A DNA stretch of 64,000 nucleotides from Bradyrhizobium vignae (GTDB taxonomy: Bacteria; Pseudomonadota; Alphaproteobacteria; Rhizobiales; Xanthobacteraceae), in contig NZ_RDQF01000001.1 of NCBI RefSeq assembly GCF_004114425.1, forward strand, positions 124,001 through 188,000, read 5' to 3'. The position numbers and the translations under genes were made by a program. Positions 3,251 through 60,887 of this stretch are shown here, piece after piece. How positions within the stretch are numbered: the stretch's first letter is position 1; each line of letters begins with the position of its first letter. The notes beneath the pieces are model-generated. The model was given only the letters and a program-made list of their open reading frames with translations. It did no database searches and was not told where the DNA came from.

Positions 3251-3733
3251 ATGAGCCGCGGGTCCGTGGACCAGAACTTCCTGTTTACGCTCGCCGAGCT
3301 TTACCGCCTGCTGCGCGTCTATGCCGACAAGGAGGCCTCGCGCTTCGGCATCACCCGCGCGCAATGGGCGGTGCTGGCCAAGGTCGAGCGCAGCGAGGGC
3401 ATGAAGCAATCGGAACTCGCCGAGTTGCTCGAGGTGCAGCCGATCACGCTGACACGCCTGATCGACAAGCTCTGCGACAGCGACTGGATCGAGCGCCGCA
3501 GCGACGCCTCGGACCGCCGCGTCAAACGTCTCTACCTGAAGAAGGCCGGGCGGCAGCTGCTCGGCAGGATGAGCGGCCTGAAATCGGAGCTGACCGCGAA
3601 CGCGCTTGACGGCATCAACCCGGCGGACGCTCACCGCCTTCTCGTCCAACTCGAAACGATCAAGGAAAACGTGCGAAACGCGATCCAGGCCTCTGGGGCG
3701 GAACAAGCGCGTAAGGAGCAGCGCTATGGCTGA
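3251..3733 (+). CDS. MarR-family transcriptional regulator of the adjacent efflux pump
   Basis: This is a winged-helix repressor of about 160 residues. The helix-turn-helix is in MKQSELAELLEVQPITLTRLIDKLCD and the wing in DWIERRSDASDRRVKRLYL. I place the start at ATG 3251 because GGAGG lies at 3238-3242 with 8-base spacing; an in-frame TTG at 3236 sits inside the operator and has no ribosome-binding site. The stop overlaps the start of the emrA-like gene by 8 bases, giving tight translational coupling. Its role is inferred to be sensing of toxic lipophiles and derepression of the pump. Confidence 0.9.
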   Translation: MSRGSVDQNFLFTLAELYRLLRVYADKEASRFGITRAQWAVLAKVERSEGMKQSELAELLEVQPITLTRLIDKLCDSDWIERRSDASDRRVKRLYLKKAGRQLLGRMSGLKSELTANALDGINPADAHRLLVQLETIKENVRNAIQASGAEQARKEQRYG

Positions 3734-4889
3734 TCAGGTCCTCAAATTCCAGCCCGAGCAGAAGGCTGACAGCGGCAAGCCGACCAAGAAGGCCGGCACC
3801 GATCCGCGCCGCCGCTTGGTGGCGGGCCTGCGCCGCTATCGTCGTTTCCTGCTTCTGGTCGTGCTGCCTCTCATCGCCGCCATCGGCGGCCTCACTTTCT
3901 ATCTGCATGGCGGCCGCTATGTCGGGACTGACGATGCCTATGTCGGCGCCCAGAAGGTGCTGGTAACCCCCGATATTTCCGGCAAGATCCTGAAAGTCGT
4001 CGTGAAGGAAGGTCAGGCCGTCAAGCAGGGCGACGAGCTGTTCGAGATCGATCCCGTGCCGTTCCGCCTCGCGGTGGACGAGGCCAAGGCGCAGCTCGCC
4101 CAGGCCCGCACGACCTATGACAACCTCGTCGCCAACATCAAGATCTACGGTGACATGCTCGACCTCGCCCAGCAGGGCGTCGACCTGAAGCAGCGCGACG
4201 TCGAGCGCAAGCAGGCGCTGGTGAAGAACAATTACGGCTCGCAGCTCGACCTCGACAACGCGTCCAACGCGCTGGTCACCGCGGGCGCGCAGGCGCAGTT
4301 CATCAAGCAGCAGCTCTCTAACGCCAAGACGCAATTGCTCGGCGATCCCAAGCTGCCCCTGGAGCAATTCCCGCCTTACGTCCAGGCCAAGGCCAAGCTC
4401 GAAGATGCCCAGCGCAATCTCGAACACACCGTGCTGCGCGCGGCGATGGATGGCGTGGCGACGCAGGTGGAACAGATCCAGCTCGGCCGTTTCGTCGCCG
4501 CCGGCACGCCGGTGTTCTCCATCATCGACGTCGCCCATCCCTGGGTCGACGCCAATCCGAAGGAGAGTGACCTTACCTATGTCACCGAAGGCCAGCCCGT
4601 CACGCTCGAGGTCGATGCGTTCCCGAACCACGTCTTCAAGGGCAAGATCGGCTCGCTTTCGCCCGGCACCGGCGCGCAATTCGCGATCCTGCCGCCGCAA
4701 AATGCCACCGGCAATTTCGTCAAGGTGGTGCAGCGCGTCCCGATCCGCATCTATTTCGACGAGACCGACAAATATGTGCGGAAGCTGAAAGCCGGCATGA
4801 GCGTCTACGCCACCATCGACACCGGCCATCGGCGCTCGCTCGCCGGCCTGCTCGGCCTGTCGGCGACAGCGGGCCAGGACAAAGACTAA
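3726..4889 (+). CDS. emrA: HlyD/EmrA-family membrane fusion protein
   Basis: This is the periplasmic adaptor subunit of a tripartite drug efflux pump, 387 residues long. It has a charged cytosolic N-terminus, one membrane anchor at about residues 41-60, then the barrel entry GTDDAYVGA. Lipoyl-like halves follow (VTPDISGKILKVVVKEGQAV and LEHTVLRAAMDGVATQVE) around an alpha-helical hairpin. It sits between its regulator and the EmrB-like permease, which starts 12 bases downstream. An outer-membrane TolC partner must be encoded elsewhere. Confidence 0.92.
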   Translation: MADQVLKFQPEQKADSGKPTKKAGTDPRRRLVAGLRRYRRFLLLVVLPLIAAIGGLTFYLHGGRYVGTDDAYVGAQKVLVTPDISGKILKVVVKEGQAVKQGDELFEIDPVPFRLAVDEAKAQLAQARTTYDNLVANIKIYGDMLDLAQQGVDLKQRDVERKQALVKNNYGSQLDLDNASNALVTAGAQAQFIKQQLSNAKTQLLGDPKLPLEQFPPYVQAKAKLEDAQRNLEHTVLRAAMDGVATQVEQIQLGRFVAAGTPVFSIIDVAHPWVDANPKESDLTYVTEGQPVTLEVDAFPNHVFKGKIGSLSPGTGAQFAILPPQNATGNFVKVVQRVPIRIYFDETDKYVRKLKAGMSVYATIDTGHRRSLAGLLGLSATAGQDKD

Positions 4890-10692: not shown

Positions 10693-11901
<1,209 letters not shown>

Positions 11902-12116
11902 CGTTGTTCTCCCTGGCTGCCGCGGTCCGGCCAAATTCTTCAATGTCGACGGAGTTTTAGGAGGGCGCCCGCGGCAGGTCAATTGACGGTTTCGCGTGCG
12001 ATTTGCAGGGGGCTGCGGTCCGCAACGCATGCCGCGGTGCGGACAACGTGGAAAACCTCCCCTGCCCGGCCAAAGCGATAGGAGCAGGAGGCGAAATTTT
12101 GTAGGTTGCGCCGCCC

Positions 12117-14855
12117 ATGACGTTGCAACAGCCCATCTCCGCCCCAGAACCCGAACCCACGCCAGCGCCCCAGGCGGAAGCCGCCGCGCGCGTGACGCCG
12201 ATGATGGAACAGTATCTCGAGATCAAGGCGGCGCATCAGGGCCTCCTGCTGTTCTACCGGATGGGCGACTTTTACGAGCTGTTCTTCGAGGACGCCGAGA
12301 TCGCCTCCAGGACGCTCGGCATCGTGCTGACCAAGCGCGGCAAGCACCAGGGCGCTGACATCCCGATGTGTGGCGTCCCGGTGGAGCGCTCCGAGGATTA
12401 TCTGCATCGTCTCATCAGCGCCGGCCACCGCGTCGCGGTGTGCGAGCAGACCGAGGATCCCGCCGCAGCAAAAGCACGCGGCAACAAGAGCGTGGTGCGC
12501 CGCGGCGTGGTGCGGCTGGTCACGCCGGGCACGCTGACCGAGGACACGCTGCTGGATGCGCGCGCCAACAATTACCTGCTCGCGATCGCGCGCGCGCGTT
12601 CGTCCGCCGGTGGCGACCGCTTCGGCCTCGCCTGGATCGACATCTCGACCGCCGAATTCATGGTGACCGAGGTTTCAGGCGGAGAGCTCGCGGCGACGCT
12701 GGCGCGCATCAACCCCAACGAGGCGATCGTCACTGACGCACTCTATAATGACAGCGAGCTCGGCCAGACCTTGCGCGAGCTGCCGGCGGTGACGCCGCTG
12801 ACCCGCGACGTCTTCGACGGCGCCACCGCCGAAAAGCGGCTCTGCGACTACTTTGCGGTCGCGACCATGGATGGGCTGGCGCAGCTCACCCGCTTGGAGG
12901 CCACCGCCGCGGCCGCCGCCGTCACCTATGTCGACCGCACCCAGGTCGGCAAGCATCCGCCGCTGTCGCCGCCCGCGCGCGAGGCCTCGGACGCGACCAT
13001 GGCGATCGATCCGGCCACCCGCGCCAATCTCGAGCTGACGCGGACGCTCGCCGGCGAACGCCGCGGGTCACTGCTCGACGCCATCGACTGCACTGTCACC
13101 TCTGCGGGTTCGCGCCTGCTCGCGCAGCGGCTCGCGGCACCGCTGACGGATGCACCGGCGATCGCTCGCCGGCTCGATGCGGTCAGCGTCTTCGTTGCCG
13201 ATTCTGCGGCGCGCGAGGACATCCGCAGCATTTTGCGGGGCGCGCCCGACATGTCGCGCGCGCTTGCCCGACTCTCGGTCGGCCGCGGCGGACCGCGCGA
13301 CCTCGCCGGCATCCGCGACGGCATCTTGGCCGCCGACCAGGCGCTGGCGCGGCTCGCCGAACTGGATCAGCCACCGCAGGAGGTCGCAGCGGTGATGGCG
13401 GCGCTGAAGCGACCATCGCGCGCGCTGGCAGCCGAGTTCGCGGCAGCGCTCGATGAGCAGTTGCCGCTGATCAAGCGCGACGGCGGCTTCGTGCGCCAGG
13501 GCTATGAGCCCGCGCTCGACGAGGCGCGAAATCTGCGCGACGCCTCGCGCCTCGTCGTCGCCTCGATGCAGGCCCGCTACGCCGACGATACCGGCGTGAA
13601 GGGTCTCAAGATCCGTCACAACAACGTGCTCGGCTATTTCGTCGAGGTCACCGCACAGCACGGCGACAAGCTGATGTCAGCGCCGCTGAATGCGACCTTC
13701 ATCCACCGCCAGACGCTGGCAGGACAGGTGCGCTTCACCACCTCCGAGCTCGGCGAGATCGAAGCCAAGATCGCCAATGCCGGCGATCGCGCGCTCAACC
13801 TCGAGCTCGAGATCTTCGAAAGGCTCTGCGCGAAGGCCCTCGCGATCAGCGACGATCTGCGCGCGGCGGCGCAAGGTTTTGCGCTGCTCGACGTCGCGAC
13901 GTCGCTGGCCAAGCTGGCGGTCGACGAGAACTACGTCCGGCCCGAAGTCGACGGCTCCCTCGCCTTCGCGATCGAGGCCGGCCGCCATCCCGTGGTCGAG
14001 CAGGCCCTGAAGCGCAACGGCGAGCCGTTCATCGCCAATGCCTGCGACCTGTCGCCGGCGCCCGCACAACAATCCGGCCAGCTCTGGCTGCTCACCGGTC
14101 CCAACATGGCGGGTAAATCGACTTTCCTGCGCCAGAACGCGCTGATCGCCTTGATGGCTCAGATCGGCAGCTTCGTGCCGGCCACGCGTGCGCGGATCGG
14201 CATCGTCGACCGCCTGTTCTCGCGCGTCGGCGCCGCCGACGATCTTGCCCGTGGCCGCTCCACCTTCATGGTGGAGATGGTCGAGACCGCGGCGATCCTC
14301 AATCAGGCCGGCGAGCGCTCACTCGTCATCCTGGACGAGATCGGCCGCGGCACCGCGACCTTCGACGGCCTTTCGATCGCCTGGGCCGCGATCGAGCATC
14401 TGCATGAAAGCAACCGCTGCCGCACGTTGTTCGCAACGCACTATCACGAGCTCACCGCGCTCTCGGCCAAGCTGCCGCGCATGTTCAATGCGACGGTGCG
14501 CGTGAAGGAGTGGCAGGGCAATGTGGTGTTTCTGCACGAGGTGCTGCCGGGCTCGGCCGATCGCTCCTACGGCATCCAGGTGGCGAAACTCGCCGGCCTG
14601 CCACCCGCGGTGATCACGCGCGCCAAATCCGTTCTGTCCAAGTTGGAGGCGCAGGACCGCGGCCAGACCGCGCGAGCCCTCGTGGACGACCTGCCGCTGT
14701 TCGCGGTGCCCTCGCGCGCCGCCACCGAGGCCGCGCCGCCGAGCGAAACCGAGCTGCTGATGGAAGCCGTGAAGGCGCTGCACCCCGACGAGATGTCCCC
14801 GCGCGAGGCGCTCGACGCGCTTTATGCGCTGAAGGCGAAACTGCCGAAGCAGTGA
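12117..14855 (+). CDS. mutS: DNA mismatch repair protein MutS
   Basis: This 912-residue mismatch sensor recognises base mispairs and recruits MutL. It has the N-terminal mismatch-binding domain with [17 protein letters not shown] (the FYE-type wedge motif) and the connector, lever and clamp regions. The ATPase follows, with [18 protein letters not shown] (Walker A), [23 protein letters not shown] (Walker B/signature) and FATHYHEL. Its length is within the normal MutS range. It is divergent from pcaF with a 215-base gap, and a family C repeat follows the stop codon. Confidence 0.98.
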
Positions 14856-38363: not shown

Positions 38364-38392
38364 TGTGGTCTCTTCGCTGTCCCCACGCTCAC

Positions 38393-48663: not shown

Positions 48664-48912
48664 ACCCTCCGGCGCGCGCATCGATTCAAACAAGGCTGAT
48701 CGCGCATCCAAAGCGAAAGCGAGCCCGCGCACTGCGCGCGCGGTTTCGCATGCGTCGTTGACCCTCTGTTAATGACGATCGTCGGCGCGCGTCGCATCGT
48801 CGCAAGTTTTCTCCAAAACACCCCCGTATTTCTCCCGACCCCTTAACCAAACTTAAGAGGGAACCGCGCAAGATCGCGGCCATTGCAAAGGCGCGCTGAA
48901 ACAACAAGATTC

Positions 48913-50658
48913 ATGACTTCTATGAACGACAATAGATATTCCGGCGCGACTGAAGCCGAGCTCGGTTTTCTCAAGGAAATCGTTAGAATGCTGCCGGCCG
49001 GCCTCACCGTGCAGGACGCGCATGGCGAGCTTCTGCTGGTCAACGACGCAGCTGCTGCCCAGCTCGGCATGGACGGCAGCCGTCCCTCACCCGATCTGGC
49101 GCCGCGCCGCGAAGCCTGCCGCAAGGCGCTCAGCGCCGGCCAGCCGGTCGTCACCGAGGAAGCGCTTCACGACGGCGCGGCGCGCCAGGTGCTGCTCACG
49201 ATCCATCGTCCCGTTCGGCTCGCCGGACGCGAGCTCCTGATCTCGGCGTCGTCCGACATCACCGAGCAGAAGAATTTCGAGGACCAGCTGTTCCGCTCCG
49301 CCTATTTCGACGAGCTGACCGGCCTGCCCTCGCGGCGCGTGATCGAGCATCGCGCCAACAGCCTGCTCGCGCGCGATCGCGGCGACGAGCGCTTTGCACT
49401 GGCCTTTCTCGACGTCGACAATTTCAAGCACATCAACGACTATTACGGTCACGCCGTGGGCGACGCGCTGCTGGTCGAGCTGTCGAAGCGGCTCGGGCGC
49501 GACCTGCGCGATTCGGACATGCTGTCGCGCATCTCCGGCGACGAATTCCTGCTGCTGCTCTCGCCGATCCAGAGCCAGGAGGAAGTCGCCGAATTCATGC
49601 AATCGACGCTGAAGCGGCTGACCGCGCCGTTCTTCATCGATCATTCGGAAGTCTTCGCCTCGACCTCGGTCGGCATCAGCCTCTATCCCGAGCATGGACG
49701 AAGCTTCGAGACGCTGCGGCAGAACGCCGACATCGCGATGTACCGCATCAAGAACAACGGCAAGGGACTGGCCGCCTTCTTCGACGCCAGCATGGAACGC
49801 GAGGCGCAGGCGCGGATGAAGGTCGAGCAGTCGCTGCGGCTCGCCATCCTGGAAAAGCGCTTCTGCTGCGCCTTCCAGTCCAAGGTCGACATCCGCACAC
49901 AGGCCGTGAAGGGCATCGAGGCACTGGTACGCCTGCGCGACGACGAAGGCGTGATCCAGGCGCCGGGCTCGTTCATCAGCCTCGCCGGCGAGCTCGGCCT
50001 CATCGACGAGCTGACCCATCTCGTGCTCGCCGAGATCGTCAAATCGATCGACCTGATCAACGACACGTTCGGCGCGGAAGCGACCATCAGCATCAACGTC
50101 GCCGCCGAGCAGGCCGGCAATCCCGAGTTCATGCGCAGCTTTGCGCAGGCGCTGGACGACACCGGCTTTCCCCATCGCTTCATGATCGAGGTGACGGAAA
50201 ATGCCTTCGTCGCCAAGAATCATTTTCAGGCCGAGATCCTGCCGATGTTCCGCAAACTCGGTGTCGGCATCTCCATCGACGATTTCGGCACCGGCTATTC
50301 CTCGCTTTCGGCGCTGGCCGACATCACGGCCGACGAGATCAAGATCGACCGCTCCTTCATCACCGACATCCATAAGCGCCCGCGCAGCCAGGGCATTCTG
50401 CGCGCGATCGAATCCTTGAGCGAAGCGCTCGGCATGACGGTGATCGCCGAAGGCCTCGAATCCTACGAGGAGCTGGCTTATCTGCAGGCCGCGACCAACA
50501 TCCGCTTCGCGCAGGGCTATTACTTCTCGCGGCCGATCTTTCTGGAGGAGCTGAAGCTGGCAACGACCGTCTCCAGTGAGGCGCGGATCAGCGTGGCGAG
50601 CCGGCCGATGCAACAGAATCGCCAGGGCTATTCGCGGGCGAGCGGGTATCGGCGGTAG
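48913..50658 (+). CDS. PAS-GGDEF-EAL cyclic-di-GMP turnover protein
   Basis: This soluble protein of 581 residues has no membrane segments. An N-terminal PAS sensor (FLKEIVRMLPAGLTVQDAHGELLLVN) leads into GGDEF with YFDELTGLPSRRVIEHR and the active-site variant SGDEF at about residue 208. The EAL domain has EAL at about 336 (KGIEALVRLRDDEG) plus the DDFGTGYSSLSALADI and EGLES motifs. SGDEF variants can still make c-di-GMP, and the EAL signature looks complete, so it may act both ways. ATG 48922 is an alternative start. Confidence 0.9.
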   Translation: MTSMNDNRYSGATEAELGFLKEIVRMLPAGLTVQDAHGELLLVNDAAAAQLGMDGSRPSPDLAPRREACRKALSAGQPVVTEEALHDGAARQVLLTIHRPVRLAGRELLISASSDITEQKNFEDQLFRSAYFDELTGLPSRRVIEHRANSLLARDRGDERFALAFLDVDNFKHINDYYGHAVGDALLVELSKRLGRDLRDSDMLSRISGDEFLLLLSPIQSQEEVAEFMQSTLKRLTAPFFIDHSEVFASTSVGISLYPEHGRSFETLRQNADIAMYRIKNNGKGLAAFFDASMEREAQARMKVEQSLRLAILEKRFCCAFQSKVDIRTQAVKGIEALVRLRDDEGVIQAPGSFISLAGELGLIDELTHLVLAEIVKSIDLINDTFGAEATISINVAAEQAGNPEFMRSFAQALDDTGFPHRFMIEVTENAFVAKNHFQAEILPMFRKLGVGISIDDFGTGYSSLSALADITADEIKIDRSFITDIHKRPRSQGILRAIESLSEALGMTVIAEGLESYEELAYLQAATNIRFAQGYYFSRPIFLEELKLATTVSSEARISVASRPMQQNRQGYSRASGYRR

Positions 50659-50752: not shown

Positions 50753-52189
<1,437 letters not shown>

Positions 52190-52205
52190 ATTTCGAGACT
52201 GGGCA

Positions 52206-52230
52206 TGTCCGGAGTCTCGGATTCCTGACA
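52206..52230. promoter_or_regulatory. Candidate upstream activator site (dyad)
   Basis: TGTCCGGA (52206-52213) and TCCTGACA (52223-52230) form an 8-bp inverted repeat with a single mismatch and a 9-base centre. It ends 77 bases before the -24 element, a normal distance for an enhancer-binding protein. The neighbouring activator's Fis HTH dimer is the likely ligand. Confidence 0.5.
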
Positions 52231-52307
52231 CGCGGCCTGGCCGCGCTTTCCTGATGCCTTCGCTGAATCTGCTGGGTTTTCAGCCATCTGCGCAAGCCTG
52301 CGGCAAC

Positions 52308-52322
52308 TGGCGCGGAGCTTGC
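52308..52322 (+). promoter_or_regulatory. Sigma-54 (-24/-12) promoter of the transporter gene
   Basis: TGGCGCGGAGCTTGC fits the TGGCACG-N4-TTGC consensus, with GG and GC exactly ten bases apart. It lies about 65 bases before the start codon of the MHS transporter gene and just downstream of the sigma-54 activator gene. Confidence 0.65.
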
Positions 52323-52386
52323 TCTTCGCTTTTGCACAATGACGCATGCTGCACATGCGCATTCGAAAACCAAGGGAGGACGCAAG

Positions 52387-53697
52387 ATGAGCGAAGCGAT
52401 CTCGGTCCATCAGCTTCAGGCGAAAAACCCGTCGCACGTCACGGTCGCCACCGCGAGCCTGATCGGCACGGCCATCGAGTGGTACGACTTTTTCCTCTAC
52501 GGCACCGCCGCCGCGTTGATCTTCAACAAGCTGTTCTTTCCGACCTTCGACCCGATGATGGGAACCCTGCTGGCCTTCGCGACCTACGCGCTCGGCTTCG
52601 TCGCGCGCCCGCTCGGCGGCGTCGTGTTCGGGCACTACGGCGACAAGATCGGCCGCAAGACCATGCTCTATCTGACGCTGCTGATCATGGGCGCGGCGAC
52701 CGCGGCGATCGGCTTTCTGCCGACCTACGAGACCGCCGGCATCTGGGCCGCGATCCTGCTGGTGACGTGCCGGCTGATCCAAGGCTTCGGCCTTGGCGGC
52801 GAATGGGGCGGCGCGGTGCTGATGGCGGTCGAGCATGCACCCTCAGACAAGAAAGGTTTCTACGGCAGCTGGCCGCAACTCGGGGCGCCGCTCGGCCTCG
52901 TGCTCGGCACGCTGGTGTTCTCCGTGGTATCGGCGATGCTGACTGACGCCCAGCTCTATGCCTGGGGCTGGCGTATCCCGTTTCTGTTCTCGATCGCGCT
53001 GGTGCTAGTCGGCCTGTGGATCCGCTTCACCATCGCGGAGTCGCCGGAGTTCCAGAAGGTCAAGGACACCAAGCAGGAAGTGAAGATGCCGATCCTCGAG
53101 GCGATCAGGATGTATCCCAAGAACATCCTGCTCGCGATGGGCGCGCGCTTCGCCGAGAACGGCTTCTTCTACATCTACGCGACATTCGTGCTCGCCTATG
53201 CCACGCAATCGCTCGGCATGAACAAGCAGGACATGCTCAACGGCGTGCTGATCGGCGCGGCGATCGAGACCGTCACCATCCCCGCCTTCGGCGCGCTCTC
53301 CGACCGGCTCGGGCGGCGGCCGATCTACATCTTCGGCGCGGTGTTCTCGGCGCTGATGTCGTTCCCGCTGTTCATGCTGCTCGCGACCAGGAACCCGCAA
53401 TACGCCTGGATCGCGATCGTGCTGGGCCTTGCCGTCGGTCATGCCGCGATGTACGGGCCGCAAGCGAGCTTCCTGTCGGAGCTGTTCGGCACCAAGGTGC
53501 GCTATAGCGGCGTCTCGCTCGGCTACAACCTCGCCTCGATCTTCGCCGGCGCGCTGTCGCCGCTGATCGCGACGGGATTGATGACGGCCTATGCGCCGGC
53601 GACCTGGCCGATCTCGCTCTACATGATCGCGCTGGCGCTGATCACCGTGGTCTCGGTCTATTTCGCCACCGAAACGCGCAAGATAGCGCAGTCCTGA
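52387..53697 (+). CDS. MFS transporter, metabolite:H+ symporter (MHS) family
   Basis: This 436-residue inner-membrane symporter has 12 predicted helices. Family features are [48 protein letters not shown] (motif A) and [18 protein letters not shown]. These match ShiA/ProP/KgtP-like carriers of organic acids. AGGGAGG precedes ATG 52387. The sigma-54 promoter and activator upstream and the CoA-transferase downstream suggest uptake of a small carboxylate. Confidence 0.92.
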
Positions 53698-53807: not shown

Positions 53808-55841
53808 GTGAGCCACCATCCAGCCCTGCCTTATTTGCGCAATTCCGAGAAGGGCAAGGTCGTCTCGGCGACCGAAGCCGTCATGCTGATCCGCGACGGC
53901 GACACGGTGGCGACCGGCGGCTTCGTCGGCATCGGCTTTGCCGAGGAGCTCGCGATCGCGCTGGAGGAGCTCTATCTGTCGCAGGAGGGCGATGCGCCCT
54001 ATACGCAGGGCAAACCGCGCAATCTGACGCTGGTCTATGCGGCCGGACAAGGCGACGGCAAGCAGCGCGGCCTCAACCATTTCGCGCATGAAGGGCTGGT
54101 CCGGCGCGTGATCGGCGGGCATTGGGGCCTTGCGCCGAAATTGCAGCAGCTCGCGATCGCGAACCAGATCGAGGCCTATAACCTGCCGCAGGGCGTGATC
54201 ACGCATCTGTTCCGCGACATCGCCGCGCACCGGCCCGGCCACATCACCCGCGTTGGCATGGGCACCTTCGTCGATCCCCGGCACGGCGGCGGCAAGCTGA
54301 ACGCGCGCACCACCGAGGACATGGTGGAGCTGATCACGCTGCGCGGCGAGGAGTGCCTGCTCTACAAGACGTTTCCGATTCAGGTCGGGATCATTCGCGC
54401 CACCACGGGCGATCCCGACGGCAATCTCACCATGGAGAAGGAGGCGCTGACGCTGGAAGCGCTCGCCATCGCCATGGCGGCGCACAATTCCGGCGGCATT
54501 GTCATCGCCCAGGTCGAGCGCGTCGCCGAGAGCGGCAGCCTCAATCCGCGCCAGGTCAAGATTCCCGGCATTCTCGTCGACTGCGTCGTGGTGGCGAAGC
54601 CCGAGAACCATTGGCAGACCTTCGGCACCCAATATAACCCGGCGTATTCGAGCGAGATCCGCGTCCGCGCCGCCTCTCTGCCGGTGATGCCGGTCAGCGA
54701 GCGCAAGATCATCGCCCGCCGCGCCGCCCTCGAGCTCAAGGCCAACAGCGTCGTCAATCTCGGCATCGGCATGCCCGAGGGCATCGCTTCGGTCGCCAAT
54801 GAAGAGCGGATCATCGACCTCATCACGCTGACGGCGGAGCCGGGCGTGATCGGCGGCATCCCGGCGAGCGGCATCGATTTCGGCGCCGCGATCAACACGC
54901 AGGCGGTGATCGACCAGCCCTATCAGTTCGACTTCTATGACGGCGGCGGTCTGGATGCCGCTTTCCTCGGTCTTGCCCAGGTCGACCGCGCCGGCAATCT
55001 CAACGTCAGCAAGTTCGGACCGAAGCTCGCAGGTGCCGGCGGCTTCATCAACATCAGCCAGAACGCCAAGGAGGTCGTCTTCGTCGGCACGTTCGGTGCG
55101 GGCAAGCAGCGCATTGCGGTGAACGACGGCAAGCTCGTCATCCTCGACGAAGCCAAGTCGCGCAAGTTCGTGGACAGCGTCGAGCACGTCACCTTCAGCG
55201 GCCCGTTCGCCGCGGCGCGCAAGCAACGCACGCTGTACGTCACCGAGCGCTGCGTGTTCGAACTGCGGCCCGACGGGCTAGAGCTCACCGAAATCGCGCC
55301 CGGCATCGACATCGAGCGCGACATCCTGCGCCTGATGGATTTCAAGCCGCTGATCCCACGCGACCCGGCGCTGATGGACGCGCGCATCTTCGGCGAGGGT
55401 CTCATGGAGCTGCGCGAACGCCTGCTCACCATCCCGCTCGACCAGCGCTTCACACTGGACGAGCAGCAGGACCTGTTCTTCGTCAACCTCGAACGCTATC
55501 CGCTACGCAGCAAGGCCGAGATCGACACCATCGCCGCCATCGTCGAGGCCCGCCTGGCGCCGCTCGGGCGCCGCGTCTATGCCATCGTCAATTATGACAA
55601 CTTCTCGATCCTGCCGGAGCTGATGGACGATTATTCGGCCATGGTCCGCAGCCTCGTCGACCGCTTCTATTCCGGCGTGTCGCGCTACACCACGTCGGGC
55701 TTCCTGCGCATCAAGCTTGGCGAAGCCCTGGAGAGGCGCGGCGTCGCGCCGCATATCTTCGAGAGCGCGGAGGAGGCGCAGTCGGACTGGCGCCAAGTCG
55801 AGGCCGGCGATTCGGGGACAGCGGGCCAAGCCCAAAAATGA
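53808..55841 (+). CDS. Fused type I acyl-CoA:carboxylate CoA-transferase with C-terminal extension
   Basis: This 677-residue protein has fused alpha- and beta-like halves as in YdiF/propionate CoA-transferase. The first half includes [21 protein letters not shown]. The second half has the catalytic glutamate in [14 protein letters not shown] (ExGxxGG) and [16 protein letters not shown]. It moves CoA between short-chain acids. About 130 residues beyond the usual end ([39 protein letters not shown]) form an extra domain, perhaps STAS-like. I chose GTG 53808 with GGGAGG just upstream. It follows the MHS transporter gene by 110 bases. Confidence 0.88.
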
Positions 55842-55946
55842 TGCATGCTCACGCGCCGGCGCGCTTCGCCGGAAGGTTTAATTGCAATGTTCGTAACGTT
55901 GTGCAAATCGCTGTTGCCGAGAAACTTTGAATCAGGAGGGACCATC

Positions 55947-57131
55947 GTGCGTCGATCACTCATCATAACAACAACCATTCTCGCGCTCGCCGCGGGCACT
56001 TCCGCACGGGCCGACGATCTCAAGATCGCGCTGATCTACGGCAAGACCGGTCCGCTCGAGGCTTACGCCAAGCAGACCGAGACCGGCCTGAAGATGGGAT
56101 TTGAATACGCCACCAAGGGCACCATGACGCTCGACGGCCGCAAGATCGTCGTCATCACCAAGGACGATCAGGGCAAGCCGGACCTCGCCAAGGCCGCGCT
56201 CGCGGAGGCCTATCAGGACGACAAGGCCGACATCGCGATCGGCACGACCTCGTCGGCTGCGGCACTCGCCATTCTCCCCGTCGCTGAGGAAAACAAGAAG
56301 ATCCTGATCGTCGAGCCCGCAGTCGCGGACCAGATTACTGGCGAGAAGTGGAATCGCTACATCTTCCGCACCGCACGCAATTCGTCACAGGACGCGATCT
56401 CGAACGCGGTCGCGATCGGCAAGCAGGGCGTCACCGTCGCGACGCTGGCGCAGGACTACGCCTTCGGCCGCGACGGCGTCGCCGCCTTCAAGGAGGCGCT
56501 GGCCAAGACCGGCGCGACGCTCGCCGCCGAGGAATATGCCCCGACCTCGACCACCGACTTCACCGCGGTCGGCCAGCGCCTGTTCGATGCGCTGAAGGAC
56601 AAGCCGGGCCGCAAGGTGATCTGGGTGATCTGGGCCGGCGCCGGCAATCCGCTGGCAAAACTCCAGGACATGGACCCGAAGCGCTACGGCATCGAGCTCT
56701 CCACCGGCGGCAACATCCTGCCGGCGCTCGCCGCCTATAAGGGCCTGCCCGGCATGGAAGGCGCGACCTACTACTTCTATGAGATCCCGAAGAACCCGGT
56801 GAACGACTGGCTGGTCGCCGAGCACCAGAAGCGCTTCAACGCGCCGCCGGACTTCTTCACCGCCGGCGGTTTCGCCGCCGCGATGTCCGTCGTCGCCGCC
56901 GTCACCAAGGCAAAGTCGACCGACACCGAGAAGCTGATCACGGCGATGGAAGGCATGGAGTTCGACACGCCGAAAGGCAAGATGGTGTTCCGGAAAGAAG
57001 ACCATCAGGCGCTGCAGAGCATGTATCACTTCAAGGTCAAGGTCGATCCGAACGTCGCCTGGGCCGTGCTCGAGCCGGTGCGCGAGCTGAAGATCGAGGA
57101 CATGGACGTTCCGGTCAAGAACAAGCGGTGA
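55947..57131 (+). CDS. LivK-type ABC transporter substrate-binding protein
   Basis: This 394-residue periplasmic protein has a short signal peptide (MRRSLIITTTILALAAGTSARA). The type I fold shows LKIALIYGKTGPLEAYAKQTETGLKMGF and IGTTSSAAALAILPVAEENKKILIVEP. The start is GTG 55947, preceded by AGGAGGG. It is distinct from the tandem pair at 23.5-26.2 kb. It heads a complete Liv transporter gene set and probably defines its ligand, an amino acid, amide or organic acid. Confidence 0.92.
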   Translation: MRRSLIITTTILALAAGTSARADDLKIALIYGKTGPLEAYAKQTETGLKMGFEYATKGTMTLDGRKIVVITKDDQGKPDLAKAALAEAYQDDKADIAIGTTSSAAALAILPVAEENKKILIVEPAVADQITGEKWNRYIFRTARNSSQDAISNAVAIGKQGVTVATLAQDYAFGRDGVAAFKEALAKTGATLAAEEYAPTSTTDFTAVGQRLFDALKDKPGRKVIWVIWAGAGNPLAKLQDMDPKRYGIELSTGGNILPALAAYKGLPGMEGATYYFYEIPKNPVNDWLVAEHQKRFNAPPDFFTAGGFAAAMSVVAAVTKAKSTDTEKLITAMEGMEFDTPKGKMVFRKEDHQALQSMYHFKVKVDPNVAWAVLEPVRELKIEDMDVPVKNKR

Positions 57132-57138
57132 CCGCTTC

Positions 57139-57285
57139 ACCTCTTCCATAGGGAGAGGTCGCACCGAAGGCGCGGGTGAGGGGTTCCGCTCTCTCGTGGG
57201 ACCCGAGCCCTCTCACCCGATTTGCACTGGACGATGCTGCGCATCGCCAGGAGCCAATCGACCTCTCCCCTTCCGGGGAGAGGTG
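57139..57285. repeat. Palindromic intergenic repeat (family A) inside the Liv operon
   Basis: It runs from ACCTCTTCCATAGGGAGAGGT to ACCTCTCCCCTTCCGGGGAG, with GGCGCGGGTGAGGGG and CCTCTCACCCGATTTGC as inner arms. It separates the binding-protein gene from the ATPase gene and may lower expression of the downstream genes relative to the binding protein. Confidence 0.78.
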
Positions 57286-57314
57286 TCACAACCAGCCCGA
57301 CACGCTTGAAACCC

Positions 57315-58079
57315 ATGCCCCTGACCCTCGAAACCCGCGATCTCACCATACGCTTCGGCGGCCATGTCGCGGTCAACAATGTCTCCTGCACGTTTCGCCC
57401 GGGCGAGCTCACCGCCATCGTCGGGCCGAACGGCGCCGGCAAGACCACTTATTTCAATTTGATCTCGGGCCAGCTGCGCGCTTCGCACGGCAGCATCCTG
57501 TTCGACGGCGCCGACATCACCCAGCATTCCGCGCCGATGCGCACGCGCGCAGGCCTCGGGCGCGCCTTCCAGCTCACCAACCTATTCCCGAACCTCACCG
57601 TGGAAGAGAACGTCCGCCTCGCGGTGCAGGCGGCGAACGGCACCCATTACGACATGCTGCGGCCCTGGATGGTGCGCCGCGACCTGATCGCGCGCGCCGA
57701 CGCCATCCTCGACCAGGTCGCCCTCGGCAATCGCTGCGGCGTCGCCGCGACCGCGCTGTCGCATGGCGACCAGCGCAAGCTGGAAGTGGCGTTGATGATC
57801 GCGCTGGAGCCAAAGGTCTTCATGTTCGACGAGCCGACCGCCGGCATGAGCATCGACGAGGTGCCTGTCGTCCTCAACCTCATCGCACAGCTCAAGCAGG
57901 ACAAGAGCAAGATCATCCTGCTGGTCGAGCACAAGATGGACGTGGTGCGTTCGCTCGCCGACCGCATCATCGTGCTGCATAACGGACAACTCGTTGCCGA
58001 CGGCCCGCCCGCCGAGGTGATCGCCTCGCCGATCGTGCAGGAAGCCTATCTGGGCGTTGCGCCAAAGAGTGCCGCATGA
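57315..58079 (+). CDS. livG: Liv-type ABC transporter ATPase (LivG)
   Basis: This 254-residue ATPase has IVGPNGAGKTTYFNLISG (Walker A), ALSHGDQRKLEVALMIAL (the signature in the SHGDQ form usual for LivG), VFMFDEPTAGMSIDE (Walker B) and ILLVEHKMDVV (H-loop). I chose ATG 57315. Its stop overlaps the livF start by four bases (ATGA). Confidence 0.94.
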   Translation: MPLTLETRDLTIRFGGHVAVNNVSCTFRPGELTAIVGPNGAGKTTYFNLISGQLRASHGSILFDGADITQHSAPMRTRAGLGRAFQLTNLFPNLTVEENVRLAVQAANGTHYDMLRPWMVRRDLIARADAILDQVALGNRCGVAATALSHGDQRKLEVALMIALEPKVFMFDEPTAGMSIDEVPVVLNLIAQLKQDKSKIILLVEHKMDVVRSLADRIIVLHNGQLVADGPPAEVIASPIVQEAYLGVAPKSAA

Positions 58080-58798
58080 CCGATCTCTTAAAACTCTCCG
58101 GCGTGCACACCCATATCGGGCGCTACCACATCCTTCAGGGCATCGATCTCGCCGTCCCGCAAGGGCAGGTCACGATGCTGCTCGGCCGCAACGGCGCGGG
58201 CAAGACCACGACGCTGCGCACCATCATGGGCCTGTGGCAGGCCTCGAAGGGCGAGATCACCCTCGCCGGGATGCGCATCGAGAGCCTTGCGACGCCCGAC
58301 ATCGCCCGGCTCGGCGTCGGCTACGTGCCCGAGAGCATGGCGGTGTTCTCCGATCTCACGGTCAAAGAAAACCTGGTGCTCGCGGCCCGCGACGGGCCCC
58401 TCGACGATGCCCAGCTCGACTGGATCTTCGGCTTCTTCCCCGCGCTGCGCCGGTTCTGGCTGTCACGGGCGGGAAGTCTCTCGGGCGGACAGAAGCAGAT
58501 GCTGTCGATCGCGCGCGCCATCATCGAGCCGCGCAAGCTGCTCTTGATCGACGAGCCGACCAAGGGCCTCGCGCCCGCCATCGTGATGGCGCTGATCGAG
58601 TGCCTGAAGGAGATCAAGCGCAAGGGCGCGACGATCCTGCTGGTCGAGCAGAACTTCTTTGCCGCCCGCGAGCTCGGCGACAGCGTGCTGGTCATGGACA
58701 ACGGCACCATCGTTCATCGCGGCGAGATGGCGGCGCTCGCCGCCGACGTGCCGCTGCAGGAGCGGCTGCTCGGCCTGAGCCTGGAGGCGCATCAGTGA
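58076..58798 (+). CDS. livF: Liv-type ABC transporter ATPase (LivF)
   Basis: This 240-residue ATPase has LLGRNGAGKTTTLRTIMGL (Walker A), SLSGGQKQMLSIARAI (signature), LLLIDEPTKGLAPAIV (Walker B) and ILLVEQNFFAA (H-loop). Both flanks overlap neighbouring genes by four bases (livG upstream and the GTG of livH downstream), so the set is translationally coupled. Confidence 0.95.
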   Translation: MTDLLKLSGVHTHIGRYHILQGIDLAVPQGQVTMLLGRNGAGKTTTLRTIMGLWQASKGEITLAGMRIESLATPDIARLGVGYVPESMAVFSDLTVKENLVLAARDGPLDDAQLDWIFGFFPALRRFWLSRAGSLSGGQKQMLSIARAIIEPRKLLLIDEPTKGLAPAIVMALIECLKEIKRKGATILLVEQNFFAARELGDSVLVMDNGTIVHRGEMAALAADVPLQERLLGLSLEAHQ

Positions 58799-59805
58799 CA
58801 GACCTTGCCGCAACCGATCCGCTGCCGAAGCCGAAGCGCGATCTCGCGCCGGTCCTGCTGCCGATCGCCCTCGCGCTGCTGATGATCCCGCTGATCGGAT
58901 CGACCAGCTCCTGGCTGACCTTGACCGCCGCGAGCCTTGCCATGGGCATGATGATCTTCATCATGGCTTCCGGCCTTACCCTCGTGTTCGGCCTGATGGA
59001 CGTGCTCAATTTCGGCCACGGCGCCTTCATCGCCGTCGGGGCCTATGTCGCAACGCTGGTGCTGGCGCCGTTTGCGGCGTCAATTCAGGCGGATTCGCTC
59101 TGGGTGAACCTCGCGGTGCTGGCGCCGGCCGCGCTGCTGTCGATGGCAGTCTCCGGCGCGCTTGGCCTGGTCGTCGAGCGCGTGCTGATCCTGCCGGTAT
59201 ATGGCCAGCACCTGAAGCAGATCCTGATGACGACCGGCGGCCTGATCGTCGCCGAGCAGACGCTCTATGCGCTGTGGGGCCCGCAGATCATCCCGATGCC
59301 GCTGCCGGTCTCACTGCGCGGCTCCTTCATCCTCGGCGACGTCGCGGTCGCCAAATACCGCGTACTGGCCATGCTGATCGGGCTCGCCGTCTTCATCGCG
59401 ATCCAGCTCGTGCTCAACCGCACCAAGCTCGGCCTCCTGATTCGTGCCGGTGTCGAGAACCGCGAGATGGTCGAGGCGCTCGGCTACCGCATCCGCCGGC
59501 TGTTCCTCGGCGTGTTCATGACGGGCTCGGCGCTGGCCGGCCTCGGGGGCGTGATGTGGGCGCTCTATCGCGAGCAGGTGCACGCCTCCATGAGCGACGA
59601 CCTCACCGTGTTGATTTTCATCGTCGTCATCATCGGCGGCCTGGGATCGATCGGCGGCTGCTTCATCGGCGCGATCCTGGTCGCCATGGTTGCCAATTAC
59701 GGCGGCTTCCTGGTGCCGAAACTCGCCCTCGTCTCCAACATCCTGCTGATGGTCGCCATTCTGATGTGGCGGCCGCGCGGCCTCTATGCGGTGACCAGCC
59801 GATGA
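58795..59805 (+). CDS. livH: Liv-type ABC transporter permease (LivH)
   Basis: This 336-residue inner-membrane permease has about eight to nine helices. Family blocks are MASGLTLVFGLMDVLNFGHGAFIAVGAYV, ILMTTGGLIVAEQTLYALWG and GLGSIGGCFIGAILVAMVANY. The start is GTG 58795, overlapping the livF stop. The N-terminal TDLAATDPLPKPKRD tail is longer than in E. coli LivH. The stop overlaps the livM start. Confidence 0.93.
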   Translation: MTDLAATDPLPKPKRDLAPVLLPIALALLMIPLIGSTSSWLTLTAASLAMGMMIFIMASGLTLVFGLMDVLNFGHGAFIAVGAYVATLVLAPFAASIQADSLWVNLAVLAPAALLSMAVSGALGLVVERVLILPVYGQHLKQILMTTGGLIVAEQTLYALWGPQIIPMPLPVSLRGSFILGDVAVAKYRVLAMLIGLAVFIAIQLVLNRTKLGLLIRAGVENREMVEALGYRIRRLFLGVFMTGSALAGLGGVMWALYREQVHASMSDDLTVLIFIVVIIGGLGSIGGCFIGAILVAMVANYGGFLVPKLALVSNILLMVAILMWRPRGLYAVTSR

Positions 59806-60887
59806 TGATTCTCTCAGGCGATCCGCCGCGCAGCCGCGTCCTCACGCTCCTTCTCGTCGTCATCATCCTGGCGCTGGCCGCGACGCCGTTCCTGTTTCCG
59901 GGCGCCAAGGCGCTGAACGTCGCGGCCAAGATCTGCGTCTTCGCCGCGCTGGTCGCCTCCTACGACCTGCTGCTCGGCTATACCGGCTCGGTGTCGTTCG
60001 CCCATACCATGTTCTACGGCATCGGCAGCTACGCCATTGCGATCGCCTTGTACGGAATGGGCCCGAACTGGGCCGCGGTCGCAACCGGAATCGTCACCGG
60101 CCTGCCGCTCGCAGCGCTGCTCGCGCTTGCCATCGGCCTGTTCTCGCTGCGGGTGGCCGCGATCTTCTTCGCCATGATCACGCTCGCGGTCGCCTCCGCC
60201 TTCCAGGTGCTGGCCTCGCAGCTGTCCTGGCTGACCGGCGGCGAGGACGGGCGCAGCTTTCAGCTGCCCGAATTGCTGCGCCCCGGCAGCGTGCTGATCT
60301 CGAAAAGCCTGTTCGGCTTCGAGATCAACGGCCGCATCCTGACCTACTACCTGGTGTTCGCGATCTCTGGCCTGATGATCCTCGCTTTGCTGCGCGTGGT
60401 GAACTCGCCGTTCGGGCGCGTGCTGCAGGCAATCCGCGAGAACCGGTTTCGCGCCGAGGCACTCGGCTTCCGCACCGTGTTCCACCTGACCTACGCCAAC
60501 TGCCTCGCTGCGCTCGTCGCCGCCAGCGCCGGCATCTTGAACGCGCTGTGGCTGCGCTATGCCGGTCCCGACACCTCGCTCAGCTTCTCGATCATGCTGG
60601 ACATCCTGCTGATGGTGGTGATCGGCGGCATGGGCACGATCTACGGCGCGATCATCGGCGCCACGATCTTCATCCTTGCCCAGAACTATCTGCAGTCGCT
60701 GATGGGTGTCGCCTCCAAGGCGGCGGGCGAAGCCGGCCTGCCGCTGCTGCCGGGGCTGTTGCATCCGGACCGCTGGCTGCTGTGGCTCGGGCTGCTGTTC
60801 ATCGCCAGCGTCTACTTCTTTCCGACCGGCGTGGTCGGACGGCTGCGCAAGGCCGGCGGCGGCAAGAGTGCAGGCGGCCCGCACTAA
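59802..60887 (+). CDS. livM: Liv-type ABC transporter permease (LivM)
   Basis: This 361-residue permease has about nine helices, including LVASYDLLLGYTGSVSFAHTMFYGIGSYA and the loop NSPFGRVLQAIRENRFRAEALGF, the ATPase-contact motif of the family. IGGMGTIYGAIIGATIFILAQNYL follows near the C-terminus. ATG 59802 overlaps the livH stop; the next codon but one at 59805 is also ATG. It is the last gene of the operon. Confidence 0.93.
   Translation: MMILSGDPPRSRVLTLLLVVIILALAATPFLFPGAKALNVAAKICVFAALVASYDLLLGYTGSVSFAHTMFYGIGSYAIAIALYGMGPNWAAVATGIVTGLPLAALLALAIGLFSLRVAAIFFAMITLAVASAFQVLASQLSWLTGGEDGRSFQLPELLRPGSVLISKSLFGFEINGRILTYYLVFAISGLMILALLRVVNSPFGRVLQAIRENRFRAEALGFRTVFHLTYANCLAALVAASAGILNALWLRYAGPDTSLSFSIMLDILLMVVIGGMGTIYGAIIGATIFILAQNYLQSLMGVASKAAGEAGLPLLPGLLHPDRWLLWLGLLFIASVYFFPTGVVGRLRKAGGGKSAGGPH

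Follow-up and report, generated by a model that had tools for sequence, protein, structure and literature searches.

The window, a stretch of 64,000 nucleotides from Bradyrhizobium vignae, holds a sigma-54-dependent activator gene followed on the same strand by genes for an MHS-family symporter, a fused CoA-transferase and a Liv-type ABC transporter with its periplasmic substrate-binding protein (SBP). Coordinates of these genes and of the control elements between them are given in Table 1. The original prediction placed an activator with GAYTGA and a Fis HTH directly upstream of the transporter unit, and this open reading frame is reproduced here; PF00158, PF02954, PF08448 and PF00989 all score above cut-off in its product. 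Further upstream, a gene with an EAL-like motif (48883-50658), presumably of EAL type, precedes the activator in 13 of 14 loci, and in the other the contig ends. A gene about 33% identical to it sits downstream of the Liv genes in most of the 14.

Table 1. Features of the activator locus, with positions in the window and the basis of each assignment
Feature	Position	Strand	Basis
Sigma-54-dependent activator gene, PAS - AAA+ with GAYTGA - Fis HTH, HbcR clade	50753..52189	+	Pfam, tree
Putative Site A, GTC-N10-GAC, across the activator's last codon and stop codon	52184..52199	+	98.8% mean identity, 37 loci; kept in L210
Putative extra half-site TGTCCGGA (left arm of the originally predicted dyad)	52206..52213	+	Conserved in Bradyrhizobium; in L210 broken except GTC
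Putative Site B, GTC-N10-GAC, holding most of the right arm of that dyad	52214..52229	+	Conservation; k = 10 is the peak spacing at clade activators
Conserved element, consensus roughly AAATTGCCGGGTTTTCAGCCATTTTGC, between sites and promoter	52266..52290	+	81.9% mean identity, 37 loci; 20/25 letters agree in L210
-24/-12 promoter element CTGGCGCGGAGCTTGCT	52307..52323	+	Extended-consensus match, conservation; rpoN gene in genome
MHS-family metabolite:H+ symporter gene	52387..53697	+	TIGR00883, 464.9 bits (cut-off 443.45)
Fused family I CoA-transferase gene, YdiF-like; start GTG 53808 or ATG 53706	53808..55841	+	PF01144 in 2 stretches; PDB 2ahu
Liv-type periplasmic SBP gene	55947..57131	+	PF13458; PDB 3n0x (E = 1.3e-228), 3nnd
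LivG-type ATPase gene; true start probably about 57315	57222..58079	+	Synteny in 14 loci; gene order and similarity
LivF-type ATPase gene	58076..58798	+	Synteny in 14 loci; gene order and similarity
LivH-type permease gene	58795..59805	+	Synteny in 14 loci; gene order and similarity
LivM-type permease gene	59802..60887	+	Synteny in 14 loci; gene order and similarity

Genes of the transporter unit

The first protein of the unit scores above the cut-off of MHS family TIGR00883, which names no substrate, and below that of the shikimate transporter equivalog (434.9 versus 538). The CoA-transferase is of YdiF type. Its single chain carries two CoA_trans stretches, and an alignment spanning 519 query residues joins it to E. 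coli YdiF (PDB 2ahu; E = 1.4e-135), where a Glu falls opposite Glu333, the catalytic Glu of YdiF. It has about 140 C-terminal residues more than YdiF, an extension that aligns in locus L254 and not in L253 or L255. According to excerpts of PMC11413402, lactate is another acid that YdiF and related enzymes are able to charge. The SBP matches PDB 3n0x over nearly its full length, and the PDB molecule names of 3n0x and 3nnd give no ligand. Against the branched-chain amino acid model NF011933 it scores 74.2 bits, far from the cut-off of 477, and the unit is not classed as a branched-chain amino acid LivKHMGF system. Both PDB entries presumably come from Rhodopseudomonas palustris.

No gene for 3-hydroxybutyrate (3HB) dehydrogenase (BDH, gene bdhA) lies in the unit, and the bdhA of the Pseudomonas HbcR arrangement described below is thus missing from it. 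Four 3HB-dehydrogenase genes over the family cut-off are found elsewhere in the genome, so the oxidation can come from outside the unit. The MHS-CoA-transferase and CoA-transferase-SBP gaps hold no terminator-like sites. Between the genes, sigma-70 promoters and terminators were dropped as candidates, at 1 versus 1.4 and 6 versus 5.5 in shuffles.

The constant target of the activator within the genus is the Liv set, not the MHS and CoA-transferase genes. SBP-Liv genes follow in all 22 Bradyrhizobium activator loci inspected (L031-L044, L087-L090, L210, L232, L233 and L235), in keeping with the suggestion that the unit might run through to them. They are preceded by MHS and CoA-transferase genes in 15 loci and by the CoA-transferase alone in three (L040, L210 and L233, MHS gene largely missing), and in the remaining four (L035, L041, L044 and L232) the SBP gene comes first after the promoter. 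L233 keeps recognisable first codons of the MHS gene, otherwise mostly gone, between the conserved promoter and the CoA-transferase (about 12380-12780). The leaders of the MHS gene (52338-52386) and the SBP gene (55860-55946) look conserved between species. Loci whose promoter faces SBP without an intervening gene retain the SBP leader, and TGCA dyads abound in that of MHS. Two Bradyrhizobium genomes, G364 (L234) and G445 (L211), keep the SBP-Liv set without an orthologous activator.

The activator clade and its gene neighbours

A Pseudomonas frederiksbergensis protein matches the activator at 48.8% identity over residues 5-472, nearly its full length. Its gene is followed by those of a 463-residue permease, a 3HB dehydrogenase (by similarity) and a 651-residue CoA-synthetase-like protein. 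We take the permease to be of GntP type, the 651-residue protein to be an acetoacetyl-CoA synthetase (AacS) and the order to be the HbcR arrangement of P. aeruginosa, PA2003-PA2005. The Pseudomonas locus L276 is called HbcR-type by its gene order, not by comparison with the PA2005 sequence. The label ScoA used below is likewise our assumption, made from gene order and similarity.

A tree of 50 activators places 21 rows in one clade (support 100/99), namely the window activator, five others from Bradyrhizobium, 12 from other alphaproteobacterial loci and three from Pseudomonas. L254 groups with Bradyrhizobium (99/100). L046, L262 and L263 form a group beside the clade, the last two having been labelled in-group before the tree, and homologues from Burkholderiales and other phyla branch at a greater distance. 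In one Bradyrhizobium genome a second activator, related at 41% (L046, 5576-7243), adjoins genes for an acyl-CoA ligase, a CaiB-type CoA-transferase, hydratases and an SBP.

Excerpts of PMC10482368 describe HbcR as activated by (R)-3HB, and these together with excerpts of PMC13390443 tie it to (R)-3HB and to RpoN/sigma-54. PMC8694187 names PA2005 as the (R)-3HB regulator, yet on the strength of conserved residues it ascribes autoinducer binding, not 3HB binding, to the PAS domain. Among the matches listed by a literature search over open-access papers, none dealt with an operator of HbcR, with this regulator in Bradyrhizobium or with what 3n0x/3nnd bind. The window activator shares the PAS - AAA+ - Fis architecture of HbcR (PA2005) and stands in one clade with the HbcR-type P. 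frederiksbergensis activator, to which it is 49% identical. We class it as an HbcR-clade variant and not as HbcR proper, because the unit lacks bdhA and the targets are different ones: HbcR serves a permease, bdhA and a CoA-synthetase, whereas the window unit encodes MHS, fused CoA-transferase and Liv ABC proteins. The device itself (a sigma-54 promoter, an adjacent activator and upstream sites) is ordinary; the target set is what differs.

Outside the genus, the gene order at clade activators is activator-BDH-SBP-Liv in L221, and activator-BDH-second ABC set-ScoA-ScoB-thiolase with SBP-Liv divergent in L045 and L225. It is activator-BDH-ABC-AacS in L252, activator-TRAP-CoA-transferase in L253, activator-permease-CoA-transferase in L254 (with a permease that shares 73% identity with that of Pseudomonas), activator-CoA-transferase-ABC in L255 and activator-permease-BDH-CoA-transferase in L331. 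BDH lies with ScoA/B, a permease or an ABC set nearby in L257, L258 and L259, and nine clade loci have only Liv genes (L256, L260, L261, L313, L317, L318, L319, L324 and L327). In L257 a gene for a methyl-accepting chemotaxis protein (11622-13079) adjoins the 3HB dehydrogenase behind a -24/-12 element with GTC-N10-GAC, hinting at chemotaxis to the same substrate as that of the clade cluster.

A test set of 23 loci, one per genus, was chosen, and the predictions were written, before inspection. BDH, CoA-transferase or SBP-Liv genes lie near the activator in 19 of the 23, counting L315, whose BDH reaches just 36%; L322 and L323 have the permease only, and L316 and L325 have no expected neighbour. 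Mutual exclusion of BDH and fused CoA-transferase had been predicted and failed, as L331, the sole test locus with the CoA-transferase, has both. Among 29 activators outside the clade, the stretches, which differ in length, contain no BDH above 40%, no such permease, no fused CoA-transferase, no AacS and no SBP of the window type; they do contain two BDH of 35-36% (L117 and L156), thiolases and one SBP of a second kind (L046).

These neighbours, together with membership in the HbcR clade, narrow the small acid of the original prediction: the ligand is probably 3HB or acetoacetate. The loci that would bridge the window to 3HB are L221, L254, L331 and L045. For the Liv set the tie would come from L221, L225/L045 and L328 and from the clade of the regulator. 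An alternative is that the regulatory device stayed the same and the ligand changed to another short or branched carboxylate when the lineage gained the MHS, CoA-transferase and Liv set. We regard this as rather unlikely. The missing bdhA and the MHS protein, with its score below the shikimate-transporter cut-off and its family without a named substrate, are in its favour, as are excerpts of PMC3223731 that give aromatic, fatty or dicarboxylic acids or other amino acids as ligands of Liv-class binding proteins from Rhodopseudomonas palustris. The Liv set also often occurs without the activator or a 3HB dehydrogenase. Of 397 genomes of the order, 55 contain the SBP at E ≤ 1e-90, and in 17 of 20 fetched SBP loci the stretch contains neither a clade activator nor a BDH above 40%, so in many genomes the Liv set works, or worked, without an HbcR-clade regulator. 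Against a changed ligand, L221, L225/L045 and L328 each combine the same SBP-Liv set with a clade activator and a 3HB dehydrogenase. The same kind of CoA-transferase also neighbours the Pseudomonas-type permease (L254) or permease plus BDH (L331).

Promoter and candidate operator

The -24/-12 element was predicted with exact GG-N10-GC spacing 65 bases before the MHS gene, and both features are reproduced: TGGCGCGGAGCTTGC occupies 52308-52322 (+) and the MHS ATG lies at 52387, 65 bases past its last base. The bare pattern TGGC-N7-TTGC is not rare, with seven exact matches within the 64-kb window. The extended sigma-54 consensus YTGGCRYRNNNNTTGCW has one match in 64 kb versus 0.08 expected from shuffles, and the GG-N10-GC lies inside this context, as in a sigma-54 promoter. 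The genome has one match for rpoN. Mean column identity of the promoter over 37 loci is 94.9%, and the promoter was not used for picking these loci. In all 32 dyad-matching loci the element follows the dyad by 79-81 bases; one copy ends in TTGT.

Upstream of the promoter, the original prediction described a dyad of TGTCCGGA (52206-52213) and TCCTGACA (52223-52230) ending 77 bases before TGGCGCGGAGCTTGC. The two arms are present at these positions, but their register is probably wrong and the stretch 52184-52199 was missed. The operator more probably consists of two GTC-N10-GAC sites and one half-site, to which the activator is predicted to bind, and the dyad would be half-site 52206-52213 joined to the right half of Site B, again probably. 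The midpoints of Sites A and B lie some 117 and 87 bases, respectively, before the -24 element.

Conservation of this region was followed through the genus, where named Bradyrhizobium records show an unchanged gene order and activators of 84-94% identity. Sixty relatives were searched for activator orthologues, which gave 13 genomes besides the window's own (87-93% identity), and the stretch from activator to next gene was aligned for these 14 loci. With up to three mismatches the dyad pattern occurs in 36 of 98 genus genomes, at a single place in each, and the reversed control occurs in none. Across the 36 genus genomes included in both searches, the activator and the dyad are found in the identical 14. 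Four further genus activators lie in L233 (G116), L232 (G347), L235 (G393) and L210 (G480); the first three keep the dyad within one mismatch or by regular expression, and L210, whose activator is 82% identical, does not. The search of orthologous loci proposed with the original prediction thus finds the dyad, at up to three mismatches, beside 17 of 18 genus activators. The dyad expression itself matches in 32 of 37 loci tested. The exceptions are L207, L211 and L234, where no activator was seen, L235, with one dyad letter changed and the promoter kept, and L210, with diverged arms and an intact promoter. Inside the window's own genome the relaxed dyad (up to two mismatches) is unexceptional, with 15 forward matches versus 14 for the reversed control and the window site as the sole one without mismatch, so that the weight of the dyad rests on conservation. 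A genome-wide regulon was dropped as a candidate because the relaxed dyad is no commoner than its control and because none of the genome's four 3HB-dehydrogenase loci pairs a GTC-N10-GAC with a promoter-like match.

Mean column identity over the 37 loci separates the elements. It is 98.8% at 52184-52199, which was not used for picking, 51.8% at 52200-52205, 95.7% at 52206-52230 (a figure inflated, as most loci were picked by the dyad) and 60% at 52231-52265. Of 38 loci matching the dyad expression, two of them identical, 37 show the exact skeleton GTC-N10-GAC-N(6-8)-GTC-N4-GTC-N10-GAC; the exception, L067, has one changed letter, as does L235. The conserved element at 52266-52290 is possibly a set of phased T-tracts that bend the DNA. 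An IHF site there was dropped, as the stretch does not fit the IHF consensus by eye.

The same spacing recurs at activators of the clade outside the genus. In 12 other alphaproteobacterial loci, two of them from one genome, GTC-Nk-GAC occurs 18 times at k = 10 and no more than seven times at each other k between 0 and 25, and 0 of 1000 shuffles reached 18 at any k. Typical copies read TGTCCGG-N4-CCGGACA, and L254, L256 and L261 also have a site at the activator 3' end. In Pseudomonas the activator is matched in 42 of 59 genomes, and the best 30 loci contain 38 sites at k = 10 and at most two at other k from 4 to 20, with a k = 10 site in 28 of the 30; these loci are interrelated and the counts are not independent events. 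The first copy, of GTCTC-N6-GAGAC type, lies at the activator 3' end in 19 of the 30 and overlaps the stop codon in L276. The HbcR-type locus of Pseudomonas resembles the window in the downstream -24/-12 element and in the GTC-N10-GAC sites, the first over the activator stop codon; in contrast to it, the window operator is compound, with an extra half-site. In the 23-locus test set the predicted peak at k = 10 is borne out in sum, with 23 sites versus at most 11 at any other k (0 of 500 shuffles). The exact GTC-N10-GAC occurs in only 11 of the 23 loci, and GTC-N8-GAC in 10. Three activators outside the clade have no k = 10 site but six at k = 9 and four at k = 11, which marks such small samples as noisy. 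GTC-N10-GAC alone is common (17 in the window versus 20.6 expected), so only adjacency, spacing and conservation carry weight.

The operator could instead be a single 25-base dyad, TGTCCGGA-N9-TCCTGACA, bound by one activator dimer, with the stretch upstream of it either coding or a site of another protein. Both arms, including half-site 52206-52213, are highly conserved in Bradyrhizobium, and L225/L045 have a TGTCCGG...CCGGACA pair whose spacer is two bases longer, as such a dyad would have it. L210, however, retains all five GTC/GAC triplets and their spacings although both arms are broken, and k = 10 is the spacing enriched across genera. In L039 an insertion of about 255 bases (about 3610-3870) lies between the activator stop codon and the operator, and Site A is still preserved on the far side, parted from the coding sequence. 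Site A is 6 to 8 bases away from the half-site that follows, depending on the locus, whereas N10 is constant. The single dyad is thus rather improbable. That another sigma-54 activator, NtrC or NifA, drives the promoter of a nitrogen-regulated transporter is very improbable: matches to the activator protein (E ≤ 0.001) lie at nine or more other places in the genome, with 26 scored out of 35 candidates, and Liv-type transporters often belong to nitrogen metabolism, but NifA control was rejected for want of its upstream activating sequence, TGT-N10-ACA, near the promoter (the window has two matches only, at 38378 and 62713), and the conserved site tracks activator presence genome by genome, once per genome.

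A predicted switch for 3-hydroxybutyrate and acetoacetate

Comparison between genomes supports a conserved promoter, conserved sites, gene linkage and clade membership. The promoter, adjacent activator, upstream sites and transporter/CoA-transferase unit of the original prediction stand in this comparison; the dyad register and the constant target are revised. We consider it fairly probable, from sequence comparison, that the locus is an HbcR-clade switch for the uptake and CoA activation of 3HB/acetoacetate. The stand-alone activator would bind the two GTC-N10-GAC sites and the half-site, the first across the end of its own gene, with its PAS domain occupied by 3HB or a close relative such as acetoacetate. 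The ligand-bound activator would then open the sigma-54 RNA polymerase promoter at the -24/-12 element, giving a transcript predicted to span the MHS importer, the fused CoA-transferase and the Liv-type ABC importer. The importers would take up 3HB/acetoacetate and the CoA-transferase would activate the ketoacid, with 3HB dehydrogenase supplied from elsewhere in the genome.

Acetoacetate as the acceptor of the CoA-transferase is favoured by the permease-BDH-CoA-transferase order of L331. On a more direct route, 3HB imported by Liv or MHS would be charged by the fused CoA-transferase to 3-hydroxybutyryl-CoA for PHB, bypassing free acetoacetate. The CoA-transferase loci of Bradyrhizobium, L253, L254 and L255 have no 3HB dehydrogenase in the stretch fetched, as this route would suggest; L331, the one CoA-transferase locus of the test set, has CoA-transferase and 3HB dehydrogenase together and speaks against it, and we think the direct route distinctly improbable.

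Several findings weigh against the switch for 3HB/acetoacetate. Beside the bdhA missing from the unit, none of the four 3HB-dehydrogenase loci elsewhere in the genome has GTC-N10-GAC and a promoter-like match together; two hold GTC-N10-GAC upstream on the gene strand and one a promoter-like match. The nine only-Liv clade loci, the absence of expected neighbours in L316 and L325, the exact site in just 11 of 23 test loci and the autoinducer assignment of the PA2005 PAS domain in PMC8694187 point the same way. SBP-Liv sets often stand without the activator, even inside the genus (L234), and our confidence in the 3HB/acetoacetate reading is lowered because of them.

The analysis predicts an operator grammar for the HbcR class in Alphaproteobacteria and Pseudomonas, namely GTC-N10-GAC with the first copy often at the end of the activator gene. 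It also offers a testable ligand, 3HB/acetoacetate, for a widespread Liv-type transporter that includes the solved binding protein of PDB 3n0x/3nnd. If the reading is true, PHB-storing rhizobia would own a dedicated scavenging system for the 3HB monomer.
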